Assembly (NCBI RefSeq): GCF_016862575.1
Contig: NZ_BONF01000026.1
Location: 62,001-126,000, forward strand
Length of the DNA: 64,000 nucleotides
Reading direction: 5' to 3'
DNA from: Catellatospora bangladeshensis
GTDB lineage: Bacteria > Actinomycetota > Actinomycetes > Mycobacteriales > Micromonosporaceae
Both the position numbers and the translations under genes were made by a program. This document shows, one piece after another, positions 19,831-46,122 of the stretch (position 1 is the stretch's first letter; every line of letters starts with the position of its first letter). The notes below the pieces were generated by a model. The model was not told the DNA's origin. It made no database searches and was given only the letters and a program-made list of their open reading frames with translations.

Positions 19831-20875
19831 TTACTGGAAGGAGATGTGGTCGATGGTGACGGTGGAGCTGCCGCCGTACCAGAAGCCCATGGCCAGCTGG
19901 GACGGGGAGTTGCGGTTGATGCCGTTGGCGACCATCGGGATCTTGATGTCCTGGTAGGACGTCGTGATCACGGGGTGGGCGCCGCCGTCGAGGGTGAAGT
20001 CGCCGAACACCTTCGTCGACCCGCCCAGGCCCAGGTTGAAGTGGGCCTGCTCGCCGCCGGCCGCGCCCTTGATCCGCACCACCAGGTAGGTCCTGGTGGT
20101 GAGGTCGACGCCGACGTCGGAGCCGAACCAGCCGCAGTTGTTGTAGCGCAGGCTCAGCGCCCCGCCGGTGATGACGCCGGAGCCGCCGCCGTCCAGGAAG
20201 CAGTTCGCGCCGGTCCACTTGCCCAGGTCGTTCTGGTTCGACGACGGGTAGGCCGGGGTGCCGTCGAAGTTGTCCAGCACCAGGCCGGTCGGCGCGGGCG
20301 CGGTGGCGTCCGTGGTCACGGACACCGCGTTGCTCGCCGCCGAGCGGTTGCCCGCCGCGTCACGTGCCTTGACCGTGTAGCCGTAGGCGGTCGACGCGGT
20401 CAGCCCCGTGTCGGTGAACGAGGTGCCCGTCGGGCTGCCGACCAGCGTCGCGCCCCGGAAGACCTCGTAACCGGTCACGCCGACGTTGTCGGTCGACGCG
20501 GTCCAGGACAGCGACACGCTCGTGTCGGTCTTGCCGGTCGTGGACAAGGTCGGCGTGCTCGGTGCGGTGCAGTCGCCCGAGCAGCCGGTGGTGGTCGCCG
20601 ACACGGCCGCCGAGGTGCCCGAGGCGTTGCCCGCCGCGTCCACGGCACGCACCGTGTACTGGTACGTCTGCCCCGGCGAGCGGCCGGTGTCGGTGTACGT
20701 CGTCCCCGTCGAGGTCCCGACCTGTACGCCGTCACGCAGCACCTGGTAGCCGGTCACCCCGACGTTGTCGGTCGAGGCCGACCAGGACAGGGACACGCTG
20801 GTGTTGGTCACGCCGGTGACCGTCAGGCCGGTGGGCGTGGACGGCGCGGTGCAGTCACCCGTGCACGTGCCGACG
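19831..20875 (-). repeat. Direct repeat copy 1 (FN3-FN3-binding domain)
   Basis: About 1045 bp coding two FN3 units and the terminal domain is nearly identical to 22419-23463, offset by 2588 bp. It suggests recent tandem duplication or gene conversion. Confidence 0.8.
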
Positions 20876-22347
20876 GTGACGGAGCTGGACAGGACGTTGT
20901 AGCCGTTGGCGGCGTCCCAGGTGCCGGTGTTGGCCAGGCGGACGGAGTACTCCGGCCGGGACTGGAGCCCGGTGGCCGGGTCCGGCAGCCACAGCGCCAG
21001 CTTGTACGTGCCCGCCGTGACGTTGCCCGGCACGGCGGCGTTCGCGGTGATCGTGCTCGCCCCCGGCAGCCAGGCGCGCGGGTCGACGCCGTTGAGCGGC
21101 AGGTTGTAGCGCTGGGTGGCGCTCTGCAGCACCAGGTAGACGGGACGGGTCTTGATCAGGCCGGACCAGCCGTCGTTGGTGAGGTGCGCGGTGAACGCGA
21201 GGTTGGTGCCGGGAGTGACGCTGGCCGGGAAGGTCGCGTCCTGTAGCCGCAGCCGGTAGCCGAGTTTGCGCTTGATGCGCACGAAGCAGGTCTCGGCAGG
21301 GTCGCTGCCGGACGCCGCCAGGTTCGCGGCCTTCCACTTGTCGGTGTTGACCGCCGCGTAGTCCTCGTTGATCTCGCTGAAGTTCAGCCTGTTCATCTCG
21401 GTCTGCGCGTTGACGCATGCCGCGTCGTTGTAGCCGTCCGAGCCGCAGGTCTCCCCGCCGACCATCTTGTTGTACCCGGTCGAGGTGGCCAGGTCATACA
21501 TCCACTGCTTCTTCTGCTCGATGTAGTACCAGCCCATCCAGGACGGGTTGTCGTAGGTGCCCATGTCGTTGACGTCGGCCAGGAAGCAGTCGTTGTGGAA
21601 GCCGACGCGGTCCTTCTGGGCCTGGGTGATCGTGCAGCCGCCGGGCACGACGCAGCTGGTCGGGTCGACGACCTCCTTGATGTAGATCGGGTAGCGCATC
21701 ACCACCGGCATGCTCGCCGGGGTGGTGTCGAGGATCTTCTTGGCGATGCGGTAGCGGGCGGGCGCCTCCTCGACCGAGGACGGGTTGGTGAGGGTGCCGG
21801 TGTGCCACTCGCCCCAGGCGCCGAGGTAGCCGGTCTCCAGGTGCAGCACGACGTCGGCGTTGGCGCTGATCACCGCGTTGAGCTGGCCGATGTGCTCCAG
21901 GATGCGGGACTCGTCGACGCTGGCGTAGCCGTCCCAGGTGTAGGCGGGGCGCAGCACGATCTTCATACCCGCTGCCCGGACCGCGGCCAGGCCGGAGGTC
22001 AGGTTGTCGAGCAGTGCCTGCGGCAGCGTGGCCGTCTTGTACTTGTCCAGGTGCAGGTAGCTGTGCAGCAGCGTGTTGCCGTTGTTCTTGGCACGGGTGA
22101 AGGTGCGGTCGAGCAGGTCCGGGTTGAAGCCGGGGATGGTGGCGGCGTTGACGTAGTCGTTGACCGCCGGGTCGTTGATGATCTCGTAGCGGTTGTGGTA
22201 GCCGCGTTCGGGGTTGGCGAACGCGGTGGCCAGGTCAGCGGTGTAGGTGAACGTGGCGGCCTGCGCGGGTGCGGCGGGCAGCGCCACGACCGCGACGGCG
22301 GCCAGTAACGTTGTCGCGATGGACATCCGCAGTGAGCGGGTGGACAT
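19831..22347 (-). CDS. Secreted DUF4874/DUF4832-type protein with two FN3 domains and a C-terminal carbohydrate-binding-like domain
   Basis: An 838-aa exported protein. The ATG at 22347 follows AGGAAGG and gives a signal peptide ending near ALPAAPAQA-AT. Residues about 30-480 look like a TIM-barrel glycosidase-type fold (DUF4874 then DUF4832): NPERGYHNRY, KIVLRPAYTWDGY, LETGYLGAWGEWHTGTL (Glu180), VVMRYPIYIKE, GFHNDCF and MVGGETCG (Glu299). Two FN3 domains follow at about 495-580 and 588-675, then a beta-rich domain (about 690-838; LVLDNFDGTPAYPSSNQNDL) likely to bind carbohydrate. Glu180 and Glu299 are conserved in all four neighbours and are candidate catalytic acids. No activity is known to me for this family. 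The last 1.05 kb is nearly identical to the next gene. Confidence 0.85.
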   Translation of the reverse strand: MSTRSLRMSIATTLLAAVAVVALPAAPAQAATFTYTADLATAFANPERGYHNRYEIINDPAVNDYVNAATIPGFNPDLLDRTFTRAKNNGNTLLHSYLHLDKYKTATLPQALLDNLTSGLAAVRAAGMKIVLRPAYTWDGYASVDESRILEHIGQLNAVISANADVVLHLETGYLGAWGEWHTGTLTNPSSVEEAPARYRIAKKILDTTPASMPVVMRYPIYIKEVVDPTSCVVPGGCTITQAQKDRVGFHNDCFLADVNDMGTYDNPSWMGWYYIEQKKQWMYDLATSTGYNKMVGGETCGSDGYNDAACVNAQTEMNRLNFSEINEDYAAVNTDKWKAANLAASGSDPAETCFVRIKRKLGYRLRLQDATFPASVTPGTNLAFTAHLTNDGWSGLIKTRPVYLVLQSATQRYNLPLNGVDPRAWLPGASTITANAAVPGNVTAGTYKLALWLPDPATGLQSRPEYSVRLANTGTWDAANGYNVLSSSVTVGTCTGDCTAPSTPTGLTVTGVTNTSVSLSWSASTDNVGVTGYQVLRDGVQVGTSTGTTYTDTGRSPGQTYQYTVRAVDAAGNASGTSAAVSATTTGCSGDCTAPSTPTLSTTGKTDTSVSLSWTASTDNVGVTGYEVFRGATLVGSPTGTSFTDTGLTASTAYGYTVKARDAAGNRSAASNAVSVTTDATAPAPTGLVLDNFDGTPAYPSSNQNDLGKWTGANCFLDGGGSGVITGGALSLRYNNCGWFGSDVGVDLTTRTYLVVRIKGAAGGEQAHFNLGLGGSTKVFGDFTLDGGAHPVITTSYQDIKIPMVANGINRNSPSQLAMGFWYGGSSTVTIDHISFQ

Positions 22348-22375
22348 GGTGGCCTTCCTGATCATCGGGAGGGTA

Positions 22376-22412
22376 GGCCGCCTGGCCGGGTCGGGAGCCC
22401 TGCCAGGCGGCC
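22376..22412 (-). terminator. Hairpin between the second and first cluster genes
   Basis: An 11-bp perfect inverted repeat (GGCCGCCTGGC / GCCAGGCGGCC), 7 bp beyond the stop at 22419, so the 19831-22347 gene may have its own promoter or rely on read-through. Confidence 0.65.
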
Positions 22413-22418
22413 GGGCTG

Positions 22419-23463
22419 CTACTGGAACGTGATGTGGTCGATGGTGATGGTGGAGCTGCCGCCGTACCAGAAGCCCATGGCCAGCTGGGACGGCGAGTTG
22501 CGGTTGATGCCGTTGGCCACCATCGGGATCTTGATGTCCTGGTAGGACGTGGTGATCACCGGGTGCGCGCCGCCGTCGAGGGTGAAGTCGCCGAACACCT
22601 TCGTCGACCCGCCCAGGCCCAGGTTGAAGTGCGCCTGCTCGCCACCGGCCGCCCCCTTGATCCGCACCACGAGGTACGTGTACGAGGACAGGTCCACGCC
22701 GACGTCGGAGCCGAACCAGCCGCAGTTGTTGTAGCGCAGGCTCAGCGCTCCCCCGGTGACCACGCCGTTGCCGCCGCCGTCGAGAAAGCAGTTGCCGCCG
22801 GTCCACTTGCCGAGGTCGTTCTGGTTCGACGACGGGTACGCGGGCGTGCCGTCGTAGTTGTCCAGCACGAGCCCGGTGGGCGGCTGCGGCGGCGCGTTGG
22901 TGGTCACCGACACGGTGTTGCTGGCGGCGGACCGGTTGCCCGCCGCGTCACGTGCCTTGACCGTGTACGAGTACGCGGTCGAGGCGGTCAGCCCGCTGTC
23001 GGTGTACGTGGTCCCCGCCGGGCTGCCGACCAGCGTCCCACCTCGGAACACCTCGTAACCGGTCACGCCGACGTTGTCGGTGGACGCCGTCCAGGACAGC
23101 GACACGCTCGTGTCGGTCTTGCCGGTCGTGGACAGGGTCGGCGCGCTCGGGGCGGTGCAGTCGCCCGAGCAGCCGGTGGTGGTCGCCGAGACGGCCGCCG
23201 ACGGGTTCGACACGTTCCCGGCCGCGTCCACGGCCCGGACCGTGTACTGGTAGGTGGTGCCCGCGGTGCGGCCCGAGTCGGTGTACGTGGTCCCGGTCGG
23301 CGTGCCGACCTGCACCCCGTCGCGGAACACCCGGTAGCCGGTCACCCCGACGTTGTCGGTCGCGGCCGACCACGACAGAGACACGCTGGTGTTCGTCACG
23401 CCGGACACCGCGAGGTTGGCCGGGGCCGACGGTGCGGTGCAGTCACCGGTGCAGGTCCCCGAG
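22419..23463 (-). repeat. Direct repeat copy 2 (FN3-FN3-binding domain)
   Basis: Partner of 19831-20875. Both copies keep the CTGDCTAPS linker before the first FN3 unit and CSGDCTAPS before the second. Confidence 0.8.
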
Positions 23464-25094
23464 GTGCTGACCGCGCCGAGGTCGACCCAGCCGTCGGCGC
23501 CCTGGTTGGCGTTGGCGAACGACAGCGGCAGGCGCGGCCGCCACTGGTCGATGATCCAGTCGGTGAGCCTGCTGGCGGCGGGACGGGCGCGCAGCACGTC
23601 CGCGGTGACCGCCTCCAGCGGGTTGCGCACCTTCAGCACCAGGCTGTAGCTGCCCGCGGGCACGCCTGCGGTGCTGACCGTCGTGGAGAAGTTGACCGGC
23701 CGGCCGAAGTCGAGGTACTTCGGGTCGGCGCCCACGTTCCAGTCCGGGAACGCCCGGATCTTCAGCGGCTGGACCCCGCGCAGGTCCCACGGGGTGTCCC
23801 AGGTCTTTACGACCGTGCCCGCGCTGTTGCGCAGGCCGAGCTGCACCGTCCACGGGTAGTAGAACGGTGCCACGCCGTCGTTCTGGACCGTCACGCCGAC
23901 CTTGAGGCTGCCCGACGCGGTGGCGTTGAAGTTGGCCTGCGGGATGTGCAGGTTGTAGCCCAGCTTGCGGATGCCCGCGGCCACCTTCGGGTCGGTGGGG
24001 CTGTAGCCGCCCGCCCCGGTCTGGTTGATCATCCAGGTGATGTGGGTGAGCTCGGTCGCGGCGAGCACGTCGTCGACCTGCCCGGAACCGCCCGGCCAGT
24101 TGGCGTAGAGCTGTCCCTGGATCTCGGGCCGGGCCTCGCCGCCGATGGACTGGGTGATCCACCGGTTCTCGGTGCCGGTGTTGAGCTGCAGCTGCAGGAA
24201 CGCGTCCGCCCAGCCGTTCATCGACATCGGCAGCGTCATGCTCTTGAGCTGCCCGCCCTCGCGGAACTCCTTGTACGGCCAGGAGTCGTCGTGGAAGCCG
24301 ATGTTCGCGGTCTCCGTGCCGGCCAGCGGGTAGCGGACCTCCAGCTGGATGTTGTCGAACGCGGTGTCGTACGCCCCGATCAGGGTGCGGATGGTGGCGT
24401 CGGTCGGCATCAGGTCCGGGTAGCCGTCGGCCAGGTCCCGGTCGTAGGGCCAGGTGTGCCACTCGCCCCACAGGCCGACCAGGCCCAGCGACATGTAACC
24501 GATGCGCGGGTCGGCGCTGCCGCCCGGCCCGGCCTTGTCATAACGCGCCGCGAACGCGTTGATGAAGGTGACCAGCGCGCTGACCACGTCCGGGTCGTCG
24601 TAGTCGGGGCTGACGGTGCCCCAGAACCCGTTGGTGCGCAGCGCCATCTTGCCGTTCAGGCACGGCGGGATGCCGTTGCCGGGGTGCGTGCCGCTGCCGC
24701 CCGGGTATTCCAGGTAGAACCGGAACGCGACCTGGCGGCTCCAGACGGCGGCCTCGTCGAGGGCCTTCTCGAACACGCTCCAGTCGATGTCGGCGCAGTT
24801 GGCGGGGTTCTTCATCACCTCGTTGAGTGCGAAGTAGCTCCAGACCAGGCCCCCGGGGAACTTGGTGGACAGGTTGTCGCCGGGGAACAGGTACGGGGCG
24901 ATGCCCTTCAGCGGCTGGCCGAGCGGTGCGTCGGCGTAGGCGTAGGTGTGCGTGGTGAGGCTCGTGTCCGGGCCGGGTCCGGCCGGCGGGCGCGGCGGCG
25001 GGCCCGCCGGTGCCGCCGTCGCGCCGGTGCCGGCGGACACGGCCACGAGCAGTGCTGCCGCGGTGGCCGCGAGCAGCTTGCGTAGCGAGGGCAT
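22419..25094 (-). CDS. Secreted DUF4832-type protein with two FN3 domains and a C-terminal carbohydrate-binding-like domain
   Basis: An 891-aa exported protein. MPSLRKLLAATAAALLVAVS is a signal peptide, followed by a Pro-rich linker. The catalytic-like region (about 45-540) contains NPANCADIDWSVFEKALDEA, FRFYLEYPGGSGTHPGNGIP, GLVGLWGEWHTWPYD (Glu211), LEVRYPL, GFHDDSW, SIGGEARPEIQ (Glu320) and HITWMINQTG. A beta-sandwich with FYYPWTVQLGLRNSAG follows and may be a non-catalytic domain. FN3 units lie at about 548-632 and 640-728; the terminal domain is at about 742-891. No terminator separates it from the upstream 451-aa gene (53 bp), so they are probably cotranscribed. Confidence 0.85.
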   Translation of the reverse strand: MPSLRKLLAATAAALLVAVSAGTGATAAPAGPPPRPPAGPGPDTSLTTHTYAYADAPLGQPLKGIAPYLFPGDNLSTKFPGGLVWSYFALNEVMKNPANCADIDWSVFEKALDEAAVWSRQVAFRFYLEYPGGSGTHPGNGIPPCLNGKMALRTNGFWGTVSPDYDDPDVVSALVTFINAFAARYDKAGPGGSADPRIGYMSLGLVGLWGEWHTWPYDRDLADGYPDLMPTDATIRTLIGAYDTAFDNIQLEVRYPLAGTETANIGFHDDSWPYKEFREGGQLKSMTLPMSMNGWADAFLQLQLNTGTENRWITQSIGGEARPEIQGQLYANWPGGSGQVDDVLAATELTHITWMINQTGAGGYSPTDPKVAAGIRKLGYNLHIPQANFNATASGSLKVGVTVQNDGVAPFYYPWTVQLGLRNSAGTVVKTWDTPWDLRGVQPLKIRAFPDWNVGADPKYLDFGRPVNFSTTVSTAGVPAGSYSLVLKVRNPLEAVTADVLRARPAASRLTDWIIDQWRPRLPLSFANANQGADGWVDLGAVSTSGTCTGDCTAPSAPANLAVSGVTNTSVSLSWSAATDNVGVTGYRVFRDGVQVGTPTGTTYTDSGRTAGTTYQYTVRAVDAAGNVSNPSAAVSATTTGCSGDCTAPSAPTLSTTGKTDTSVSLSWTASTDNVGVTGYEVFRGGTLVGSPAGTTYTDSGLTASTAYSYTVKARDAAGNRSAASNTVSVTTNAPPQPPTGLVLDNYDGTPAYPSSNQNDLGKWTGGNCFLDGGGNGVVTGGALSLRYNNCGWFGSDVGVDLSSYTYLVVRIKGAAGGEQAHFNLGLGGSTKVFGDFTLDGGAHPVITTSYQDIKIPMVANGINRNSPSQLAMGFWYGGSSTITIDHITFQ

Positions 25095-25147
25095 GAACGT
25101 TGTTCCTTTCAGGGGACGAGGTGCAGGAACAGCGGTGCGGGGCGGTG

Positions 25148-26503
25148 TCAGCGGGTGGTGACGGTGCCCAGGTGCAGCCAGCCGGAGTGGGTGTCCTGGC
25201 TGGTGTTGGCGAAGCGCAGCGGGATGCCCTGGGGCAGCGGGTTGGCCACCCGCAGGACGATGTCGTACGTGCCGCGCCGCAGCCCACGGGTGTTGATCGG
25301 GGTGGTCAGCTCGGCCGGGTCGGCGCCGGGCTGGATGCCGGCGACGTTCCAGCCGGTCTTCCAGCGGGCGGCGACGCGGCCCGCGGCGTCGATCGCGGCC
25401 AGCTCGGCCTGCCACGGGTAGTAGAAGGGCGCGGTGCCCCGGTTGGCGACGCGCACCGACACCCGCTGCGCGCCGACGGCGGCCTCGGTGACGGTCAGCT
25501 CGTAGCCGAGCGAGCGGGCGGCGTCCAGGGCGCGGAAGTACTCGTCGCCGGTGTAGCCGGTGGCGAACGCCTGGTGGTTGATCAGCCAGGAGGCGTGCGT
25601 CTGGTCGACCGAGGCGGCGTAATCCTCGTACTGGCCGCAGCTGACGGGCTGCTCGAACAGGCACTGCTGGATCTCGGGGCGCAGCTCGCCGCCGACGGGC
25701 TCGGTGCGCCACTTCTCGGTGACGCCGTTGTCGATGAGGCGCTGCACGAAGTGCCACGAGGTCGGCGGCAGCGTCTCGAACGCGAACGAGTCGTCGTGGT
25801 AGCCGATCGGCAGCTCCTTGTTCTCCGCGCTCGGGTAGCGGGCCAGCAGCCGGGTCCTGTCGAACGACTCGTCGAACGCGGTCAGGATGCGGGTGAGGAT
25901 CTCGGTGCTCGGCATCCAGTTGTCGGGGTTGGTCCAGCCGTCGTACGGCCAGGTGTGCCACTCGCCCCAGAAGCCGATCAGGCCGAGGGTGACGAAGCCG
26001 ATGCGCGGGTCGCCGTCGTAGCGGCGGCCGAACGCGGTGATGAAGTTCTCCAGGGCGCTGACCAGGCGCGGGTCGCTGTAGTCGGGGGCGACGCTGACCC
26101 CGTTGTTGCCGAAGTCGTCGTACGCGTGGGTGGTCAGGCCCTGGTCGAGCAGGTACTGCGGGATGCCGGTGGGCTTGCCCGGGTAGTCGAGGTAGAACCG
26201 GAACACGCCCTGGTGGCCGCGCGCGGCGACGGTGTTGAGCTGCCGCTCCAGCGCGGTCCAGGAGAATTGGTCCGGTCCGGTCATCACGTCGCGCAGCGGC
26301 AGGTAGAACCACTCCATGCTGTGCGGGAACGTGTCGTAGCTGCCCGCGAACGGCATGAATCCCTTGAGCGGATTGTCGGCGGGCGCGGGCGTGTAGGACA
26401 GGGCCGCCCACTGGGGCGCGGCCGGGGTGGCCACCGCGGGGGTCGCGGCGGCCACGGAAAGGGTGGCCAGAAGCGCGACGGTGAGTCGCACGGCTCTTCT
26501 CAT
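25148..26503 (-). CDS. Secreted DUF4832-type protein, single-domain
   Basis: A 451-aa exported protein, the shortest of the four, with a signal peptide (MRRAVRLTVALLATLSVAAA) and GAGGAAA before the ATG at 26503. It has the shared core: NPLKGFMPFAGSYDTFPHSM, FRFYLDYPGKPTGIPQYLL, GLIGFWGEWHTWPYDG (Glu181), LLARYPSAENKE, GYHDDSF, PVGGELRPEIQ (Glu273) and HASWLINHQAF, then a beta-sandwich with APFYYPWQAELAAID. It has no FN3 or binding module, so it defines the minimal unit of the family. It is separated from the upstream 866-aa gene by a hairpin. Confidence 0.85.
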   Translation of the reverse strand: MRRAVRLTVALLATLSVAAATPAVATPAAPQWAALSYTPAPADNPLKGFMPFAGSYDTFPHSMEWFYLPLRDVMTGPDQFSWTALERQLNTVAARGHQGVFRFYLDYPGKPTGIPQYLLDQGLTTHAYDDFGNNGVSVAPDYSDPRLVSALENFITAFGRRYDGDPRIGFVTLGLIGFWGEWHTWPYDGWTNPDNWMPSTEILTRILTAFDESFDRTRLLARYPSAENKELPIGYHDDSFAFETLPPTSWHFVQRLIDNGVTEKWRTEPVGGELRPEIQQCLFEQPVSCGQYEDYAASVDQTHASWLINHQAFATGYTGDEYFRALDAARSLGYELTVTEAAVGAQRVSVRVANRGTAPFYYPWQAELAAIDAAGRVAARWKTGWNVAGIQPGADPAELTTPINTRGLRRGTYDIVLRVANPLPQGIPLRFANTSQDTHSGWLHLGTVTTR

Positions 26504-26529
26504 GACTGTTTCCTCGCAGGGTGATATGG

Positions 26530-26553
26530 CCGGCCGGGCGGGTGCCCGGCCGG
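26530..26553 (-). terminator. Hairpin after the first cluster gene
   Basis: A 10-bp perfect inverted repeat (CCGGCCGGGC / GCCCGGCCGG) with a 4-nt loop, about 20 bp beyond the stop at 26574. Confidence 0.7.
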
Positions 26554-26573
26554 ATCTCGTGGGGGTATGGGGA

Positions 26574-29174: not shown

Positions 29175-29347
29175 GCGGTTCTCCGTGCGGGAGTGGGGCG
29201 TAGCTGCGGGTGTGCGGCGCGCGTGCCGGGCTCAGCACGAGCGGCTGTGCGGGTGGTGCAGACCCCGACGCGCAGGTCGGAGCTGGTGCGCAGTGCTACG
29301 AGACCTCTCGCTTGCTCCCGTTGTTGCCGAAGCAATACGAAGAGGTG

Positions 29348-29372
29348 TTGACAAAATTTCGAAGGTCTACAT
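29348..29372 (+). promoter_or_regulatory. Promoter region of the sugar importer operon
   Basis: A consensus TTGACA (29348-29353) lies in the 258-bp divergent region, with an AT-rich stretch downstream (CATCATTATT). No well-spaced -10 box is certain: CATTAT is 19 nt away. TTGC-N4-GCAA (29324-29335) is a nearby dyad that could be an operator. The ten-base block TTGACAAAAT matches TTTACAAAAT (reverse strand) upstream of the ROK gene except for one base. Confidence 0.45.
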
Positions 29373-29432
29373 CATTATTCGAGAGCGGGGCGGCTGGCAA
29401 GAGCCGACCGATAGACGGATCCGAGGACGTGG

Positions 29433-30314
29433 ATGAGCTCGACAAAACCGCGAGACGACCGCCGGGCGGCATGGTGGTTCCTGCTGCCCGTGCTGGTGGG
29501 ATTCGCCGTCTTCTACGGCTACCCCGCCGCCCGGGGCCTGTGGTACTCGGTCACCGACTACACGATGCTCAACACCCCGTCGTACGTCGGCGCCGAGAAC
29601 TACAGCAAGCTCGTGCAGGACGACAAGTTCTGGAACGCGCTGCTGGTCACCGGCTGGTACGTGGTGCTGAACATCGGGTCGCAGACGCTGCTGGCGCTGG
29701 GCATCGCGACGCTGATGCACCGGCTGACCCGCTCGGTCGTGCTGCGGGCCACGCTGCTGCTGCCCTGGCTGGTGCCCAACGTGACCATCGGCCTGCTGTG
29801 GATGTGGCTGCTGGACACCAACCTGGGGTTCTTCAACCAGCTGCTGCACACCGTCGGCTGGGGCCCGGTGGGCTTCTTCACCGACGAGACCTGGGCGATG
29901 CCGACGGTCGCGGGCATCAACACCTGGGCCTACACCGGCTACACGGCGCTGCTGCTCTACGCCGGGATGCTGCAGATCCCGCAGTACCTCTACGAGGGGG
30001 CGTCCATCGACGGCGCCGGCGAGTGGCGCATGTTCCGCCGCATCACCCTGCCGCTGCTGCGCCCGGTGCTGGCGCTGGCGCTGGTCGTGTCGCTGATCGG
30101 CTCGTTCCAGATCTTCGACACCATCGCGGTCACCACCAAGGGCGGCCCGGTGTCGGCGACGCAGGTCATCTACTACTTCATCTACCTGCAGGCATTCAAG
30201 TACTTCCACATGGGCTACGCCGCGGCGGCGGCGGTGTTCCTGGCGCTGATCCTCGGCGTGCTCACCGCGATACAGATGCGCCTGCTGCGCGCGTCCCGCT
30301 CGGACCTGGCGTGA
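29433..30314 (+). CDS. Carbohydrate ABC transporter permease 1 (MalF-like)
   Basis: A 293-aa inner-membrane permease of the CUT1 class, with GAGGA before the ATG. It has about six transmembrane helices, an N-terminal RAAWWFLLPVLVGFAVFYGY segment typical of MalF/UgpA homologues, and the ATPase-contact loop YEGASIDGAGEWRMFRRITL (EAA motif, G-A-x-I-D-G-A). It pairs with the permease downstream and the lipoprotein at 31256. It is the first gene of the importer operon, divergent from the secreted-protein cluster. Confidence 0.93.
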   Translation: MSSTKPRDDRRAAWWFLLPVLVGFAVFYGYPAARGLWYSVTDYTMLNTPSYVGAENYSKLVQDDKFWNALLVTGWYVVLNIGSQTLLALGIATLMHRLTRSVVLRATLLLPWLVPNVTIGLLWMWLLDTNLGFFNQLLHTVGWGPVGFFTDETWAMPTVAGINTWAYTGYTALLLYAGMLQIPQYLYEGASIDGAGEWRMFRRITLPLLRPVLALALVVSLIGSFQIFDTIAVTTKGGPVSATQVIYYFIYLQAFKYFHMGYAAAAAVFLALILGVLTAIQMRLLRASRSDLA

Positions 30315-30325
30315 AGGGGCAGACC

Positions 30326-31207
30326 GTGACGAAGAAGCTCAACCCCGGCCGGTTCCTCGCGTGGGCCGCGATGATCGTGGTGATCCTGGCGACGGTCTTC
30401 CCGTTCTGGTGGATGGTCCGCACGGCGCTCACCCCGGCCGCCGACATCTACACCGACAACCTCGGCCTGCTGCCCGAGCACCCGACCCTCATCAACTTCC
30501 TGCGGGTGCTGGGCCTGACCAGCGAGGCGGAGAACCGCGCGGCCGGCGGGTCCGGCGCGCAGCTCGACTTCGCCGCGTACCTGGTGAATTCGATCATCTA
30601 CTGCGGGCTGATCGCGGCCCTGCAGACGCTGTTCTGCGCGATGGCGGGCTACGCGTTCGCCCGGCTGCGCTTCCCGGGGCGCGACCTGGTGTTCGCGATC
30701 GTGATCGCGGCGCTGATGGTGCCCCCGATCTTCACGCTGCTGCCGAACTTCGTGCTGGTCAAGGACCTCGGCCTGATGAACACCATGGCCGGCATGGTCG
30801 CCCCGACACTGCTGATGACGCCGTTCGCGGTGTTCTTCCTGCGCCAGTTCTTCCTGTCGCTGCCGCGTGACGTGGAGGAGGCGGCGATCCTCGACGGCAA
30901 CGGCCCGTGGGGCATCTTCTGGCGCATCGCGCTGCCGATGAGCCGCGGCCCGCTGATCACCATCGGGCTCACCACCATCGTGTGGGCCTGGAAGGACTAC
31001 CTGTGGCCGCTGCTGGTCGGCCGGGACGAGGACAACCGCCTGGTCACCGTCGCGCTCGGGGTGTTCCTCCAGCAGTCGCCCAACACCCAGCCCGACTGGA
31101 CCGGCCTGATGGCCGCCTCGACGCTGTCGGTCCTGCCCGTGCTGCTGCTGCTCGTCTTCGTGGGCAAGCGGCTGGTCCAGTCCCTGAACTTCACCGGAAG
31201 CAAGTGA
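30326..31207 (+). CDS. Carbohydrate ABC transporter permease 2 (MalG-like)
   Basis: A 293-aa permease of the MalG/UgpE type: ATVFPFWWMVRTALTPAADI near the N-terminus, a family-typical helical core (CAMAGYAFARLRFPGRDLVF) and the EAA loop DVEEAAILDGNGPWGIFWRI. The GTG at 30326 is chosen because AAGGGG lies 6 nt upstream; a GTG at 30311 overlapping the upstream stop (GTGA) is the alternative. An insert with SEAENRAAGGSGAQLDF in the first periplasmic loop is slightly unusual. Confidence 0.92.
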   Translation: MTKKLNPGRFLAWAAMIVVILATVFPFWWMVRTALTPAADIYTDNLGLLPEHPTLINFLRVLGLTSEAENRAAGGSGAQLDFAAYLVNSIIYCGLIAALQTLFCAMAGYAFARLRFPGRDLVFAIVIAALMVPPIFTLLPNFVLVKDLGLMNTMAGMVAPTLLMTPFAVFFLRQFFLSLPRDVEEAAILDGNGPWGIFWRIALPMSRGPLITIGLTTIVWAWKDYLWPLLVGRDEDNRLVTVALGVFLQQSPNTQPDWTGLMAASTLSVLPVLLLLVFVGKRLVQSLNFTGSK

Positions 31208-31255
31208 CCGTTACACCCCACCGCACCATCACCCCCTGAGAAAGAAGGATCAGTA

Positions 31256-32605
31256 ATGAACCGTGTGACACGGGCCGGGGCGGCGCTGCTGTCCCTGGCC
31301 GTGGCGGCCGGCCTGGCCGCGTGCAGCCAGTCCGAGGAGCCCGGCACGGGCGAGGCGGTGACGCTCAACTACTGGCTGTGGGACGACAACCAGAAGGCGT
31401 CCTACCAGCAGTGCGCCGACGAGTTCACCAAGGCCAACCCGAACATCACCATCAAGATCAGCCAGTCGGCGTGGAACGAGTACTGGCAGAACCTCACCAC
31501 GCAGATCGCGGCGGGCGACGCGCCGGACGTGTGGACCAACCAGGGCTCGTACTACCCGCAGTTCGTCAGCTCGGGGCAGATCCTGGACATCCAGCCCTAC
31601 GTCACCAAGGACGGCGTCGACCTGTCGCAGTACCAGGGCGGCCTGGCCGACCTGTTCACCAAGGGCGACCAGCGCTTCGGCCTGCCGAAGGACTGGGACA
31701 CCATGGCCCTGGTCTACAACGCCGACCACCTCAAGGCACAGGGCCTCGACGCGGCCTCGCTGGCGAACCTGACCTGGAACCCGGCCGACGGCGGCACCTT
31801 CGAGCAGGCCATCGCCAAGGCGACGGTCGACGAGAAGGGCCGCAACGGCCTCGACCCGGCCTTCGACAAGACCAAGGTCAAGGTGTTCGGCTTCCTGCCG
31901 GAGTGGGCCGACGGCTCGCAGGGCCAGAACGGCTGGGGCAACCTGGCCGCCAGCAACGGGTTCACCTACCTGGACAAGAACCCGTGGGGCACCCAGTACA
32001 AGTACGACGACCCGAAGCTGGCCGAGACCATCGACTGGTTCAAGAAGCTGATCGACAAGGGCTACAGCCCGGCGCTGGACAAGGCCTCCACGCTCAGCCG
32101 GGACTCCCTGCTCAACGCCGGTAAGGGCGCGATCACCTTCGCCGGCTCCTGGATGATCAACAGCTACCTGGGCGACGGCGCGAAGCTCAAGTTCGCGTTC
32201 GCGCCACTGCCGGCCGGGCCGCAGGGCCGCAAGACGGCCATCAACGGCCTGTCCGACGCGATCTGGGCCGGCACCAAGCACAAGGACGAGGCCTGGCAGT
32301 GGGTCAAGTTCCTGGGCTCGGCGCAGTGCCAGAACATCGTCGGCGGCAACGGCGTGGTCTTCCCGGCCATCAAGTCCGCCAGCGAGAAGGCCCTGGCCGC
32401 GCACACCGCCAAGGGCCGCGACGTGAAGGTGTTCGTCGACGAGGCGGCGGCGCCCGGCGGCACGTTCTTCGTGCCGATCACCGAGCACGGCAACGAGATC
32501 AGCCAGACCGTCCAGGACGCCATCCAGTCCGCGATCCTCGGCCAGGCGAGCGCGGCCGACGCGCTGAAGAAGGCCAACGACCAGGTCAACGCGCTGTTCA
32601 AGTAG
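31256..32605 (+). CDS. Extracellular sugar-binding lipoprotein
   Basis: A 449-aa solute-binding protein of family 1. The signal peptide ends in the lipobox LAAC (about residues 19-22), so it should be lipid-anchored outside the membrane. Mature motifs include VTLNYWLWDDNQKASYQQCA, ITIKISQSAWNEYWQNLTTQ, AAGDAPDVWTNQ and KGAITFAGSWMINSYLGD. AAGGA precedes the ATG. It would deliver an oligosaccharide to the two permeases. Substrate is inferred as an alpha-galactoside from the GH36 gene next door. It is followed by a hairpin that may favour higher expression of this gene. Confidence 0.93.
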   Translation: MNRVTRAGAALLSLAVAAGLAACSQSEEPGTGEAVTLNYWLWDDNQKASYQQCADEFTKANPNITIKISQSAWNEYWQNLTTQIAAGDAPDVWTNQGSYYPQFVSSGQILDIQPYVTKDGVDLSQYQGGLADLFTKGDQRFGLPKDWDTMALVYNADHLKAQGLDAASLANLTWNPADGGTFEQAIAKATVDEKGRNGLDPAFDKTKVKVFGFLPEWADGSQGQNGWGNLAASNGFTYLDKNPWGTQYKYDDPKLAETIDWFKKLIDKGYSPALDKASTLSRDSLLNAGKGAITFAGSWMINSYLGDGAKLKFAFAPLPAGPQGRKTAINGLSDAIWAGTKHKDEAWQWVKFLGSAQCQNIVGGNGVVFPAIKSASEKALAAHTAKGRDVKVFVDEAAAPGGTFFVPITEHGNEISQTVQDAIQSAILGQASAADALKKANDQVNALFK

Positions 32606-32626
32606 GCGCCGCGCCAACCGTGTCAC

Positions 32627-32657
32627 CGCGGCGGGCCGGGTACACCGGCCCGCCGCG
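32627..32657 (+). terminator. Hairpin between binding protein and alpha-galactosidase
   Basis: A 13-bp perfect inverted repeat (CGCGGCGGGCCGG / CCGGCCCGCCGCG), 5-nt loop. It probably acts as a partial terminator or 3'-stabiliser inside the operon. Confidence 0.7.
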
Positions 32658-32695
32658 CCGCAATCCTCGTCGCATCGCACCTGTCTAGGAGAACC

Positions 32696-34192
32696 ATGGC
32701 ACTGCTCATCGAGCTCGCCGGCCACACCTTCGCCCTCGAACATGACGGACCCGGCAGCCCGCTCGCAGCCGACGGGGGCCTGATTCTTCCACCGGGGCGC
32801 GTCGCGCTCCTGCACGGACTCGGCGACGTGCCGTTCTACCGGCACGGCTACAACTCGTGGAGCCCGTGCGGGTGGCGGCGGCTGTCCGAGCCGCCGCTGC
32901 GGATCGCCAACCCCCAGCGCCGCGTCACCGCCGACGACGACGCCTGGGACGACCCTTCCCGCCACCACTCCTCGGCCGTGGCCGCGCTCGACGCCGGGGA
33001 CGGCAACGTGCTGCTGCTGGGCGCGCTCGGGCTGGGCGTGCCGCGCCTGTCGGCGGACCGGGACACCCTCGCCGGCTGGTACGAGACCGGTGGCCAGCCC
33101 TGGTTCGCCGCCTACGGCCCCGAGGACGAGGTGTTCGCGGCGTACACCCGGCAGCTCGCGCAGCGGCTCGGCAGCAGCGGGCGCCGCGCCGGCAACGTCT
33201 GGTGCTCCTGGTACGCCTACTACGAGACCATCACCGAGCAGCAGCTGGCCAAGGACGTCGACGACCTGCGCGGCCTGCCGTTCGACGTGGTGCAGGTCGA
33301 CGACGGGTGGGAGCGGCTGGTCGGCGACTGGGAGCCCAACCACAAGTTCCCGTCCGGCATGAAGGCGCTGGCCGAGCGCATCACCGACGCCGGGATGACC
33401 GCCGGGCTGTGGCTGGCCCCGTTCATCGCGCTGCCCGGCTCGGACCTGGCCCGGCAGCATCCGGAGATGCTGCTGCGCGACGGGCGGGGCGAGCTGGTGG
33501 TAGCCGGGCACAACTGGGGCACCGGCTACCACGCCCTGGACCTGTCCCGGCCCGCCACCCGCGATCACCTGGCCGAGCTGACCCACCGGGTGGTGCACGA
33601 GTGGGGGTTCAAGTACCTCAAGCTCGACTTCGTCAACGCGGGTGCGGCACCCGGCGCTCGCGAGGGCGGTGCCGAGCGCGAGCAGAGCTACCGCGACGCG
33701 CTCATGCTGATCCGGCAGGTCGCCGGGGACGATGTGTACCTGCTCGGCAGCGGCGCCATGCTGCTGCCGTCGCTGGGGGTGCTGGACGGGATGCGCAGCG
33801 GCCCGGACGTGGCGCCGATGTGGCAGAACTACGCCAGCGACGACCCGTCGGACGCGATGGCGCGCAACGCCGTGGTCAACACGGTGCACCGGCTGTGGCA
33901 GCAGCCGCTCGCCGAGGTGGACCCGGATGTCATCTACTTCCGCAGCCGGCTCAACCTGCTCACCGAGCAGCAGCTGGCCTGGCTGCGGGACCTTGCCGAC
34001 ATCTGCGGGTTCCGGGCCGTGTCCGATCCGCCGAGCTGGCTGAGCCCCACCGAGCTGGAGGACATGACCGGATACCTGGCCGCTCGGCCGGAGATCCGGC
34101 GGCTGGGCCGATACCGGTACACAGTGGATGGGCGCGAGACTGACTTCGGTCCGGCGATCACCCCGGCGGCGCAGGCATACCCCATCTCGTGA
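32696..34192 (+). CDS. GH36-family alpha-galactosidase, cytoplasmic
   Basis: A 498-aa glycosidase without signal peptide; AGGAG precedes the ATG. The barrel has FDVVQVDDGWERLVGDWEPN, WLAPFIALPGSDLARQHPEM, the nucleophile Asp311 in FKYLKLDFVNAG and the acid/base Asp371 in DGMRSGPDVAPMW. The 60-residue spacing equals that of Thermotoga GH36 enzymes as I recall. The N-terminal beta-domain is short (about 150 residues), as in compact GH36 members. It would cleave terminal alpha-galactose from imported oligosaccharides. It sits between the importer genes and the ROK regulator. Confidence 0.92.
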   Translation: MALLIELAGHTFALEHDGPGSPLAADGGLILPPGRVALLHGLGDVPFYRHGYNSWSPCGWRRLSEPPLRIANPQRRVTADDDAWDDPSRHHSSAVAALDAGDGNVLLLGALGLGVPRLSADRDTLAGWYETGGQPWFAAYGPEDEVFAAYTRQLAQRLGSSGRRAGNVWCSWYAYYETITEQQLAKDVDDLRGLPFDVVQVDDGWERLVGDWEPNHKFPSGMKALAERITDAGMTAGLWLAPFIALPGSDLARQHPEMLLRDGRGELVVAGHNWGTGYHALDLSRPATRDHLAELTHRVVHEWGFKYLKLDFVNAGAAPGAREGGAEREQSYRDALMLIRQVAGDDVYLLGSGAMLLPSLGVLDGMRSGPDVAPMWQNYASDDPSDAMARNAVVNTVHRLWQQPLAEVDPDVIYFRSRLNLLTEQQLAWLRDLADICGFRAVSDPPSWLSPTELEDMTGYLAARPEIRRLGRYRYTVDGRETDFGPAITPAAQAYPIS

Positions 34193-34197
34193 CGCCG

Positions 34198-34231
34198 CGG
34201 CGGCGGGACCCGCAGCCGGGTCCCGCCGCCG
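34198..34231 (+). terminator. Strong hairpin after the alpha-galactosidase
   Basis: A 14-bp perfect inverted repeat (CGGCGGCGGGACCC and complement) with a 6-nt loop, followed by outer pairs GACGCC/GGCGTC. Confidence 0.85.
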
Positions 34232-34269
34232 GGGCGTCACGCACGGTGGGCTTGCCATCACCCGCCGAT

Positions 34270-34284
34270 TTTGTAAAGATCAAA
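34270..34284. promoter_or_regulatory. Possible regulator-binding dyad upstream of the ROK gene
   Basis: TTTG-N7-CAAA in an unusually AT-rich stretch 44-58 bp before the ROK start, resembling operators of ROK or LacI-type repressors. It contains the ATTTTGTAAA block that is nearly repeated (reverse strand) at the importer promoter. Confidence 0.35.
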
Positions 34285-34327
34285 GCGTATTAGGCGGCCA
34301 AGGCCGCTCCAGGACAAGGGACAGATC

Positions 34328-35497
34328 GTGACAGAACTGGCAACGACCGGCACGGATCTGCCGCGACTGCGCGAACTCAACTCGCTGAGCATCGTGCGGG
34401 CGCTGCGCGACCAGCCGCCGTCCACGGTCACCGAGCTGTCCCAGCGCACCGGCCTGTCCCGACCCGCCGTCGACGTCATCGCGCAGGGCCTGGTCGCCGA
34501 CGGCTGGGCCACCGTGCTGGAGCCCGGCGCCAACAGCGCCGTGGGCCGCCCCGCCCGCCGCTACCAGTTCCGGGCCACCGCCGGGCACGTGCTCGGCATC
34601 GACGTCGGCGTACACAAGATCCTCGCGCTGCTGTCCGACCTGGACGGCAACATCGTGCACTCGGTCCGGCAGAGCGTGGCCGCCGACGCCCCGCCCGCCG
34701 ACCGCCTCGCCGAGCTGGACAACGTGATCAGTGCGTGCCTGACCGGGGCCGGCAAGGCGCCCGCCGACATCTGGGCGGTCACCGTCGCGGTCACCGGCGC
34801 CGTCGACGCCTCCGGCCGGACCAGCTTCTTCACGCCGCTGCCCGGCTGGGGCGACGTCGACCTCACGGGGCACCTCGCCAGCCGGTTCGCCTGCCCGGTG
34901 CAGGTCGAGAACGACTGCAAGCTGGCCGCCGTCGCCGAGCGGTGGCAGGGCGCGGCCAGCGACGCCAACGACATCGTCTACGTGCTGGCCGGTATGCGTA
35001 CCGGCGCGGGCCTGATCCTGGACGGGGTGCTGCGCCGCGGCTACGGAGGCGCGGCCGGTGAGATCGGCGCGCTCAAGCACGTGCGCTGGCTCAACGCACC
35101 CGCGCACCTGCAGAACTGCCCCGGGGTGCCCGACACGGTCGGCCCCGACGACGCCGCCGCGTGGGTGTTCAACGCGGCGCGCGAGGGGGACAAGGCCGCC
35201 CGCACCGCCGTCAGCCGCTACGTCAAGGATCTCGCCGTCGGCGCCGCGGCGCTGGTGCTGGCCCTGGACCCGCAGGTGGTCATCCTCGGCGGCGGCTTCT
35301 CCCGCTCGGCCGACCTGATCCTCAACGCGCTGCGGCAGGAGCTGCAGCGGCTGTGCCTGCGGATGCCCGAGGTGCGCGCGTCCACGCTGGGCGCCGACTC
35401 CGTCGCGCTCGGGGCGCTCAAGCTGTCGCTCAACGAGGTCGACGACCGGCTGTTCAGCGCGGGCCTGTCGGCACCGGTCGCGCCCCGCCGCAAGTAA
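34328..35497 (+). CDS. ROK-family transcriptional regulator
   Basis: A 389-aa regulator. The N-terminal winged helix is clear (RELNSLSIVRALRDQPPSTV, then TELSQRTGLSRPAVDVIAQG), followed by the sugar kinase-like ROK domain (HVLGIDVGVHKILALLSDLD; VAVTGAVDASGRTSFF; VQVENDCKLAAVAERWQGAA). The usual zinc motif CxCGxxGCxE is missing: after ALKHV the sequence reads WLNAPAHLQNCPGVPDTVG. It may sense a sugar from GH36 action and repress the locus; this is inferred from position. The start is GTG at 34328 after AAGGGAC. Confidence 0.9.
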   Translation: MTELATTGTDLPRLRELNSLSIVRALRDQPPSTVTELSQRTGLSRPAVDVIAQGLVADGWATVLEPGANSAVGRPARRYQFRATAGHVLGIDVGVHKILALLSDLDGNIVHSVRQSVAADAPPADRLAELDNVISACLTGAGKAPADIWAVTVAVTGAVDASGRTSFFTPLPGWGDVDLTGHLASRFACPVQVENDCKLAAVAERWQGAASDANDIVYVLAGMRTGAGLILDGVLRRGYGGAAGEIGALKHVRWLNAPAHLQNCPGVPDTVGPDDAAAWVFNAAREGDKAARTAVSRYVKDLAVGAAALVLALDPQVVILGGGFSRSADLILNALRQELQRLCLRMPEVRASTLGADSVALGALKLSLNEVDDRLFSAGLSAPVAPRRK

Positions 35498-35619: not shown

Positions 35620-36021
35620 ATGGCTGACATGACCCACTTCACGATCGCCACCGTCGCCGAGCAGAGCGCCGATTTCCGGCGTGTGCTGTGGACGGGCCGC
35701 CACACCCAGCTGGTGATCATGACGATCCCGCCCGGCGGCGAGATCGGCGAGGAGGTGCACGAGCACAACGACCAGATCCTGACCTTCGTCAGCGGCACCG
35801 GCGAGGCCGCCGTGGGCGGCGAGACCCGCCAGGTCACCCAGGGCGACCTGGTCGCCGTGCCGGCCGGCACCCGGCACAACTTCCGCAACACCGGCGTGAA
35901 CCCGCTGGTCCTGTACACGGTCTACGGCCCGCCCGACCACGCCGACGGCGTCGTGCACGCCACGAAGGAGGAGGCCGAGGCCGCGGAGGCCGCCGGCCGG
36001 GACGAGCCGCCCGCCCACTGA
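35620..36021 (+). CDS. Small cupin-domain protein
   Basis: A 133-aa single-cupin protein with GGAGG before the ATG. Cupin motif 1 (PPGGEIGEEVHEHNDQILTF) and motif 2 (PAGTRHNFRNTGVNPLVLYT) are present, with His/Glu metal ligands VHEHND...E and a later His. The C-terminus is Ala/Glu-rich and acidic. Members of this type bind a metal and may be sugar or oxidative-stress linked, but no substrate can be read here. Confidence 0.88.
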   Translation: MADMTHFTIATVAEQSADFRRVLWTGRHTQLVIMTIPPGGEIGEEVHEHNDQILTFVSGTGEAAVGGETRQVTQGDLVAVPAGTRHNFRNTGVNPLVLYTVYGPPDHADGVVHATKEEAEAAEAAGRDEPPAH

Positions 36022-45900: not shown

Positions 45901-46122
45901 CCGCAGCTGGATCGCCGAATTGGCACTGAGCTCGTCGAGAAGCTTGACCTGCTCCTTGGCGAGGTAGGGGTCCTTGCGGTAGTCGGTGGTGATGGTGGAT
46001 TCCGGTGCCGCATTCACCGTGGACCGGGTGGAGTCGGTGATGACGACCGCCAGGCTCGCCACCAGCGTCAGGCCGGCCGTTATCGCCACCGCCCGCCGCG
46101 ACACGAAAGATTGCCGATGCAT
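42994..46122 (-). CDS. Secreted M4 (thermolysin-like) metalloprotease with long propeptide and extra C-terminal domain
   Basis: A 1042-aa exported zinc protease. AGGAGG precedes the ATG at 46122. The signal peptide (RAVAITAGLTLVASLAVVIT) is followed by a propeptide with FTP/PepSY-like segments over about 490 residues. The catalytic domain has HEFTH at 623-627 (SRDIVAHEFTHGVVESATAF) and the third ligand Glu647 in GALGEHYADLMG, 20 residues after the second His as in thermolysin. After about residue 820 lies a further region (about 220 aa; SSTKFARYPVILDGHRGNTV, GWWHIGTGGIFLRAVYDIWE) that I cannot assign. The length is about twice that of classical M4 precursors. Confidence 0.9.
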   Translation of the reverse strand: MHRQSFVSRRAVAITAGLTLVASLAVVITDSTRSTVNAAPESTITTDYRKDPYLAKEQVKLLDELSANSAIQLRAESWQQARTVGRLELEIPSGLDPKASLTEHAIAFVQQHLALWNLADIRDAEVTRVVSAGDCSTVTFSRITPDRLVVANAAMSVVLTRDGVIRGVAGQLTGEKLGEVDTKKLEAAKAVEVVRAYQAARGYEDADVVALPAPTEVVIDPFFLTGGAHSPRRGWLFGTPEWLEPEKEVPAGLQLVDQSTAAVAATGPGLTLTGKSIGGCPSSNPVTWLQRVVLDPATGTPAWVGLGHMSIATQGATPVDRARDLMAQPLFAQLYGTLRPTHHLRSPQQFTDVGGRVSVRFQEYYAGYPVEGAYLTVTLRATGQAESISARFVSFPTAHQQATMTSANAVAAAANRYRDAVCEWRLDCLTWFAGWLSANPPAPPLVVLSADLFAGTNLGQGEERLVYRVSLPGRIAYVDARSGGEVFAVDSQAHAVPYTILNGQQQDRAEISKAPGTPPLTPGTHLVPAGTMHPDSITAASFLDATDAFYTSLGRDSFDGQGSPIKVRVGSAFDGNAVWCGRTPQETTLPRQTSDPGLYGYLDCLDIRMHLGTKILSRDIVAHEFTHGVVESATAFFAAGEPGALGEHYADLMGNLVENDAADWRVAEDSPGGAVRDMANPRAFGDPDHMALVNQGCPLCTHKTAGVPNRAAVMITDGGVPGVGTPGIGRPAMAQLAYATLTGGRLGPASGFLDHRVETLATCKAAVGAPLGGIAFTAAMCEHVARAFDAVGITAFEDIGWQVTFIGPRQYTVHGGLTLYRGCTIADQTLVARDVSTGLVLTSNIAGGLSLSFGGEWDARVVSRASASNPAGREALIEIFVPWQDGDSRVIVDLVETYNKPAGVTDDQCRTPPTPVHRRTLYSSTKFARYPVILDGHRGNTVLNAFQSLPAGCSVERVTGLLYWRANGSGGHTVPAPPSATTYADGIRGFTISRTNPGQPQDLAATLGWWHIGTGGIFLRAVYDIWEPDGTDCMTGGLQTTP

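Follow-up and report, generated by a model that had tools for sequence, protein, structure and literature searches.

A conserved actinomycete locus linking secreted DUF4832 proteins to a predicted alpha-galactoside uptake pathway

Introduction

What do secreted proteins of the DUF4832 family act on, and which pathway do they serve? A nine-gene locus of Catellatospora bangladeshensis raises this question. It spans positions 19831-35497 of the window, the 64-kb stretch of DNA analysed here, and has two divergent arms. The minus-strand arm encodes D1-D4, four DUF4832 proteins that are all exported by their signal-peptide-like starts. The plus-strand arm (29433-35497) encodes two CUT1 permeases, a binding lipoprotein, an enzyme of glycoside hydrolase (GH) family 36 without a signal peptide and a ROK regulator. 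We think it probable that these genes together serve the utilisation of an alpha-galactoside-bearing polysaccharide, as a dedicated system that combines secreted hydrolases with an importer, the GH36 enzyme and ROK control.

Results

Layout of the locus

19831..22347, minus strand: D1, exported DUF4874-DUF4832 protein with two FN3 domains and a C-terminal module like a carbohydrate-binding module (CBM), 838 amino acids (alternative start at 22365, giving 844)
22419..25094, minus strand: D2, exported DUF4832 protein with two FN3 domains and the same C-terminal module as D1, 891 amino acids
25148..26503, minus strand: D3, exported DUF4832 protein without accessory modules, 451 amino acids
26574..29174, minus strand: D4, exported DUF4832 protein with FN3 and two CBM6 domains, 866 amino acids; the most widely kept member among 79 related loci
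29348..29378, plus strand: putative promoter/operator box between the arms, TTGACAAAnTTTCG-N8-CATCATTAT
29433..30314, plus strand: CUT1 permease 1
30311..31207, plus strand: CUT1 permease 2 (start at 30311 or 30329)
31256..32605, plus strand: sugar-binding lipoprotein; best match in the Protein Data Bank (PDB) UspC, E 2e-39
32696..34192, plus strand: predicted GH36 alpha-galactosidase without signal peptide; best PDB match 6lcj, E 2.5e-113
34328..35497, plus strand: ROK-family regulator with N-terminal helix-turn-helix

Gaps between neighbouring D1-D4 genes measure 53-71 bp. An earlier note on this DNA had described four paralogous exported proteins divergent from an importer, a GH36 enzyme and a ROK regulator, and every part was found in its place. 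The ten genes counted there become nine unless a cupin gene at 35620-36021 is added, which recurs at none of the 79 related loci. Its starts for D1 (22806) and D2 (26411) came from over-extended longest frames and are revised to 22347 or 22365 and to 25094, respectively. Across the host's own 8.83-Mb genome (G000), DUF4832 is matched four times, always at this locus. Because all four sit here and the arrangement recurs in many genera, the locus is more than a chance grouping. Elsewhere in the window, a large 1042-aa protein with an HEFTH motif (42994-46122) appears exported and thermolysin-like by eye.

All four D proteins pass the curated Pfam cut-off for DUF4832 (PF16116, 29.2 bits), with D1 at 178.5, D2 at 38.3, D3 at 32.6 and D4 at 40.5 bits. 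DUF4874 (PF16173, cut-off 30.1 bits) scored 104.3 bits in D1 and was sub-threshold in D2 (20.9) and D3 (19.6); no match was listed for D4. Three of the secreted proteins had been credited with FN3 and/or carbohydrate-binding modules. Pfam agrees, placing two FN3 domains in D1, two in D2 and one in D4, there with two CBM6 domains, and neither kind in D3. The C-terminal module of D1 and D2, about 150 amino acids, has no Pfam match and was modelled as a CBM-like beta-sandwich at a predicted local distance difference score (pLDDT) of 96.2. It returned no match among PDB sequences.

In the plus arm, Pfam identified BPD_transp_1 in both permeases, SBP_bac_1 in the binding protein and ROK in the regulator. 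The binding protein has a lipobox, LAAC, with its cysteine at position 23; signal peptides and lipobox were judged by eye and by pattern rather than by a predictor. Two permeases and a family-1 binding lipoprotein, as in CUT1 importers, are thus present. The permeases' NCBIfam matches (UgpA/UgpE, GlcT/GlcU and MalF/MalG types) all fell below their respective cut-offs. Pfam found no ATPase subunit among the nine genes, and the rest of the genome was not searched for one; CUT1 importers can use a shared ATPase such as MsiK. The GH36 enzyme has a Melibiase domain (59.5 bits, cut-off 27) and aligned with 6lcj over residues 27-487. Both contain the motifs KLDF and GPD, matched in 1zy9 as KIDF and GPD, which we take to be the conserved Asp motifs of GH36.

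Conservation across genomes

Comparison was made across 79 loci, the best of 282 relatives from named genomes, so the linkage rate holds for D4-like proteins. Their hosts belong to Micromonosporaceae, Streptosporangiaceae, Kribbella, Streptomyces, Actinacidiphila, Lentzea, Umezawaea, Paenibacillus and Cohnella, and the named loci closest to the window are from Catellatospora. Importer and GH36 genes accompany the secreted gene at 65 of the 79 loci, with ROK as well at 59. Window genes outside the locus served as controls: pfkB was found at one of the 79 loci, cupin, photolyase and DUF4383-like genes at none, and a histidine kinase at six with identities in the 30s%. The nearest relative, L035, has pfkB and cupin at 96-98%, so the controls are detectable when present.

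DUF4832 was found in at least 69 of 300 family genomes, own genome included. A reverse search returned GH36 enzymes of 71-100% identity in at least 40 of the 300, and all 40 lie within the DUF4832-carrying set, with agreement of the two lists judged by genome label and coordinate. The next match by score, among those listed, had 218.6 bits and 37% identity. The linkage of DUF4832 to GH36 and importer genes that the earlier note proposed to look for is therefore strong. We also hand-picked 40 family loci from the DUF4832 matches of these genomes. At 32 of these, the secreted genes diverge from permeases, binding protein and GH36, and 30 of the 32 have a ROK match. The full set is missing at the other eight (L052, L062-L064, L068-L071); one of them, L070, has a ROK match along with a different CUT1 importer.

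Secreted members were not equally frequent at the 79 loci: D4 was present at 58, D3 at 38, D2 at 28 and D1 at 22. D4 was the sole secreted member with all five partner genes at 29 loci. The commonest form of the locus needs one secreted protein, D4, and a system built on four, as first described, is not required. Fourteen of the 79 loci lack the window-type set. The importer of four of them, from Paenibacillaceae, is of CUT1 type but different (27-33% identity). In the other ten no full importer match was found: seven end at a contig edge and L109 has no binding-protein match, which leaves L131 and L133 as real exceptions. An Actinomyces oris plasmid (L196, 10761-23305) carries DUF4832 and GH36 genes some 10 kb from each other, separated by CRISPR-associated genes.

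The locus is real and widely conserved. It belongs to a general kind of utilisation locus that is already known, and its secreted enzyme family is unusual. The known kind is the alpha-galactoside uptake operon with a CUT1 importer and a GH36 or GH4 enzyme. It shares with the present locus the binding lipoprotein, two permeases, cytoplasmic alpha-galactosidase and local regulator. In contrast to those operons, the present locus has a constant secreted DUF4832 partner, which suggests a polymer as the starting point.

Alpha-galactosidases at DUF4832 loci

Further families of alpha-galactosidase occur at these loci. Two of the four Paenibacillaceae importer loci (L146 and L150) have a GH31 protein beside the importer, and the best PDB matches of both are entries named 'GH31 alpha-galactosidase' (8j50 and 8j53; E 8e-137 and 3e-138), followed by MYORG. 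Passages of PMC9491548 report MYORG as an alpha-galactosidase. No GH31 was seen in L144, nor in the part of L151 that was scanned. Of 86 neighbourhoods examined, 14 include a GH4 gene: L068 and 13 from the set of 79. For nine of these 14 that were scored, the best family was 'alpha-galactosidase' PRK15076 in all nine, with six over the cut-off and three just below. A distant DUF4832 gene at L068 (228-10935) has as neighbours a GH4 alpha-galactosidase, a CUT1 importer, an SIS-domain protein and a weak GH114/TM1410-like protein. GH27 with CBM2 was found at one distant locus, L070.

Judged by gene counts, chance neighbours are unlikely, because the own genome is poor in such genes: GH4 has two, PF02065 three and PF16499 two, with one gene in both of the last counts. 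The alpha-galactoside assignment of the earlier note, drawn from GH36, is backed by these GH31, GH4 and GH27 enzymes, and as a sequence-based prediction this part of the reading is well supported. Separately, an oxidoreductase of the Gfo/Idh/MocA type is encoded in 21 of the 86 neighbourhoods, in actinomycetes and Paenibacillus (for example L119 11846-13150 and L150 3497-4792); all seven that were scanned matched this family.

A box shared by the two arms

With up to four mismatches allowed, 54 of 85 intergenic or upstream regions contain the 18-base core of the box, against none of 425 shuffled copies, which preserve base composition only. Allowing five mismatches gave 65 of 85 and 2 of 425, respectively. 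The whole box (22 fixed bases) occurs with at most three mismatches at 65 of the 79 loci and with at least six at the other 14; read backwards, the pattern never did better than six. All 61 loci with a ROK match have the box, compared to 4 of 18 without. At up to three mismatches it is a single site in the 8.83-Mb own genome.

The box is oriented towards the importer genes. Eight loci with importer genes in two units have it before both (0-2 mismatches) and have no third site below seven mismatches. In a set of ten short-spacer loci, 29-59 bp separate the box's other edge from the ATG of the secreted gene, compared to 173 bp in the window; both sets, the eight and the ten, were hand-picked for layout. 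The secreted gene's promoter should overlap the box in short-spacer loci because its ATG is so near. Three Dactylosporangium copies have D3-D2 without an importer (L131, L133 and L135), with the box about 190-230 bp ahead of the D3 match. Its retention upstream of D3 in these importer-less copies suggests that the box serves the secreted arm too. Joint control of both arms by a shared, putative promoter box is thus supported, and we infer that the ROK protein binds it. Passages of PMC4856308 describe RokB, a studied ROK regulator, whose binding sites are bordered by A-rich sequence and include one inverted repeat.

Fold and candidate catalytic residues of the secreted proteins

A structure model of the D4 core (486 aa), based on a 60-sequence alignment (A3), reached pLDDT 95.6 and a predicted template modelling score of 0.93. 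Its best PDB matches in Foldseek were GH35 beta-galactosidases, endoglycoceramidase, PslG and beta-amylase (best E 2.8e-8), and GH5 and GH39 enzymes were also listed. As modelled, D4 would be a TIM-barrel-type hydrolase with a C-terminal beta-sandwich.

Two glutamates, E175 (GLWGEWHT) and E284 (GGE), are invariant in all 60 rows of A3. This invariance arises partly by selection, as relatives were seeded with G[LF]WGEWHT and [MIV]GGE[LVA]RPEI. A wider 29-row alignment takes in rows that those patterns missed (the D1 type, plasmid matches, L068, L070, L071 and others), and each glutamate is kept in 28 of its rows, Acidisarcina being the exception for both. Members of clan GH-A are TIM barrels with catalytic Glu at strands 4 and 7. 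In the D4 model, E284 lies on strand 281-285 and E175 nine residues past strand 162-166, and the Foldseek matches listed, GH35, GH5 and GH39 enzymes among them, reach a TM of at most 0.42. We propose E175 and E284 as the catalytic pair of the D4 core.

Other searches with the secreted proteins gave little. The D3 sequence returned a single chance antibody match from the PDB, D1 matched through its FN3 domains only, and with an E limit of 10 the D4-type profile had no match there. The likeness of GGELRPEIQ to a beta-amylase motif was dropped after an insignificant GH14 profile comparison. The D4 core had no match in phages. At L069 (9209-11020), a distant DUF4832 frame stands among frames that are phage-like by eye; a phage context was set aside, as residues 32-151 of the DUF4832 frame match Gordonia phage minor tail proteins and no listed place covers the DUF4832 part. 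A Paenibacillus gene (L144, 9887-17584) encodes a 2565-aa protein with DUF4832, several CBM11-like domains and three SLH repeats, which is probably held at the cell surface.

DUF4832 in the literature

The earlier note knew of no described activity for the family, a view now outdated. According to passages of a 2025 mBio paper (PMC12345266), purified SIR_1591, a DUF4832 protein, disrupted aggregates of Streptococcus intermedius; the polymer is Pel, rich in N-acetylgalactosamine (GalNAc). SIR_1591 is described there as extracellular, with a predicted TIM barrel and C-terminal beta-sandwich, and so resembles the D4 model by description. It differs from the present locus in lying within a Pel synthesis operon and in having a predicted transmembrane helix, and those passages mention no importer or alpha-galactosidase alongside it. 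Elsewhere, streptococcal and clostridial Pel clusters hold DUF4832 genes, and galE occurs near Pel operons (passages of PMC7112168). A DUF4832 gene is also placed in a Klebsiella capsule/colanic-acid region (passage of PMC6258164). The papers listed in searches on DUF4832, DUF4874, 6lcj, bacterial use of galactosaminogalactan and GH36/CUT1/ROK loci held nothing on the present locus and no experiment on it.

Discussion

We propose the following route. D1-D4, aided by CBM6 and CBM-like modules, would cut a polymer outside the cell as glycoside hydrolases. The released oligosaccharides would be caught by the binding lipoprotein and imported through the two CUT1 permeases, perhaps with a shared ATPase. 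The cytoplasmic GH36 enzyme would then strip alpha-galactose from them, and the ROK protein would control both arms through the shared box.

Several observations weigh against this scheme or parts of it. Among the 50 Foldseek matches listed for the D4 core, TM ranged over 0.13-0.42 and root-mean-square deviation over 13-22 A, which denotes a fold class, not a close relative. Comparisons of the D4 profile with GH14, GH42 and GH114 in hhalign gave insignificant probabilities of 0.2, 0.2 and 0.1%; they used 1, 12 and 12 sequences, respectively, with frames picked automatically and not checked singly. The model of the D1/D2 C-terminal module is nearest CBM30, CBM8 and CBM11, of which CBM30 and CBM11 are beta-glucan binders. 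UspC, the best of 55 matches to the binding protein, hints at amino sugars; we set it aside as a weak lead, with reported affinities of tens of mM. Four Acrocarpospora/Nonomuraea loci (L137, L140, L141 and L147) have importer and GH36 without a ROK match and lack the box, a DeoR-type gene being present in three of them. The box is also absent from the Paenibacillaceae loci. L131 and L133 hold D2 and D3 without an importer on full-length stretches, three family D4 genes have no GH36 (L062-L064), and for distant plasmid relatives the gene tables, which are incomplete, show no sugar importer close by. Finally, no gene for amino-sugar phosphate metabolism is among the nine, and a GalNAc-rich polymer would call for one.

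Which polymer, then, would be used? Our leading single guess, a tentative one, is an alpha-1,4-linked galactose/galactosamine polymer of the Pel or galactosaminogalactan type made by other organisms; a plant glycan is about as likely. On a Paenarthrobacter plasmid (L195), a DUF4832 gene adjoins galE, and a protein combining PF11997, which we take to be the PelF marker, with a glycosyltransferase domain is encoded some 2 kb away. Two other loci encode D3-type proteins with which the L195 DUF4832 protein clusters (support 100/99), and the window's D3 joins this cluster weakly (81/64). The L195 protein shares 68% identity with D3 of L104, 54% with the window's D3 and 41% with D4. Strong PF16116 matches, thus of D1-like type, occur within about 4 kb of PF11997 in at least four family genomes (G187, G193, G215 and G243). 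No PF11997 match is listed for the own genome. Of 11 sampled members of the genus, at least 3 have such a match, whereas DUF4832 is present in every one. Self-made Pel is therefore not the common substrate. In passages of PMC3213105, fungal galactosaminogalactan is linear alpha-1,4-galactose and alpha-1,4-GalNAc, one fraction having stretches of 2-10 galactoses; such stretches would yield products for an alpha-galactosidase.

GH114 enzymes hydrolyse alpha-1,4-linked polymers of GalNAc and galactosamine, and no profile relation between them and D4 was found. The PelA hydrolase domain, Sph3 and Ega3 hydrolyse such polymers too (passages of PMC12345266) and are set beside the D proteins by description only. 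GH114 and PF11997 matches lie a few kb apart in several family genomes among the matches listed (G055:C53, G075:C47, G042:C31 and G071:C6), which suggests Pel-like clusters there. DUF4832 genes also adjoin or lie a few kb from GGDEF/EAL proteins on two plasmids, of Treponema (L198, 3127-14110) and Paenarthrobacter (L195, 7023-12296).

The same mechanism acting on a plant or algal galactoside (galactomannan, galactoglucomannan, raffinose-type sugars or arabinogalactan side chains) is quite possible, if short of an even chance. The D1/D2 C-terminal module resembles CBM30/11/4, and the distant DUF4832 locus L070 encodes, besides a GH3, a PF09206 arabinofuranosidase and its GH27, each carrying CBM2. 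Paenibacillus is among the hosts, as are many actinomycetes that we take to be soil dwellers. A rumen consortium has a cellulosomal DUF4874-DUF4832-dockerin protein (passage of PMC7480376). Against a plant glycan, Pfam found no mannanase, galactanase or beta-galactosidase domain in the nine genes, and both SIR_1591 and the relatives linked to PelF speak for a Pel-type polymer. The earlier note had proposed a dedicated pathway for a galactose-containing glycan and listed both exopolysaccharides and plant glycans. The linkage and the alpha-galactoside hold up and the glycan is not established, with Pel-type polymers and galactosaminogalactan being a more specific exopolysaccharide candidate.

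It is improbable that the D proteins merely bind or present glycan at the surface. Their FN3 and CBM modules and the SLH repeats of the Paenibacillus member would suit such a role, but the two glutamates are kept across both alignments, partly by selection in the first, the modelled fold is hydrolase-like, and family member SIR_1591 dispersed Pel aggregates. Remodelling or recycling of the host's own exopolysaccharide, which the presence of DUF4832 genes in other organisms' synthesis clusters (those for streptococcal Pel, for the exopolysaccharides of Enterobacter and Klebsiella, and in Paenarthrobacter) would favour, is similarly doubtful given the PF11997 distribution above and an importer and cytoplasmic alpha-galactosidase that suit feeding.

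Returning to the utilisation of an alpha-galactoside-bearing polysaccharide, DUF4874/DUF4832 might constitute a new glycoside hydrolase family for alpha-1,4 galacto-configured polymers, a suggestion we make with reserve. Makers of a Pel matrix would use it for trimming or release, and soil actinomycetes and Paenibacillus to scavenge fungal or bacterial galactosaminogalactan or Pel matrix. DUF4832 is widespread, with one reported activity in the literature searched. Its constant neighbourhood assigns it a pathway, restricts the product to alpha-galactosides and names candidate catalytic residues, and the putative regulator and operator offer a handle for finding the inducer. If the polymer is indeed Pel or galactosaminogalactan, the pathway would let soil bacteria use biofilm and fungal matrix as food by a dedicated route, and matrix-cutting enzymes could be sourced from this locus.

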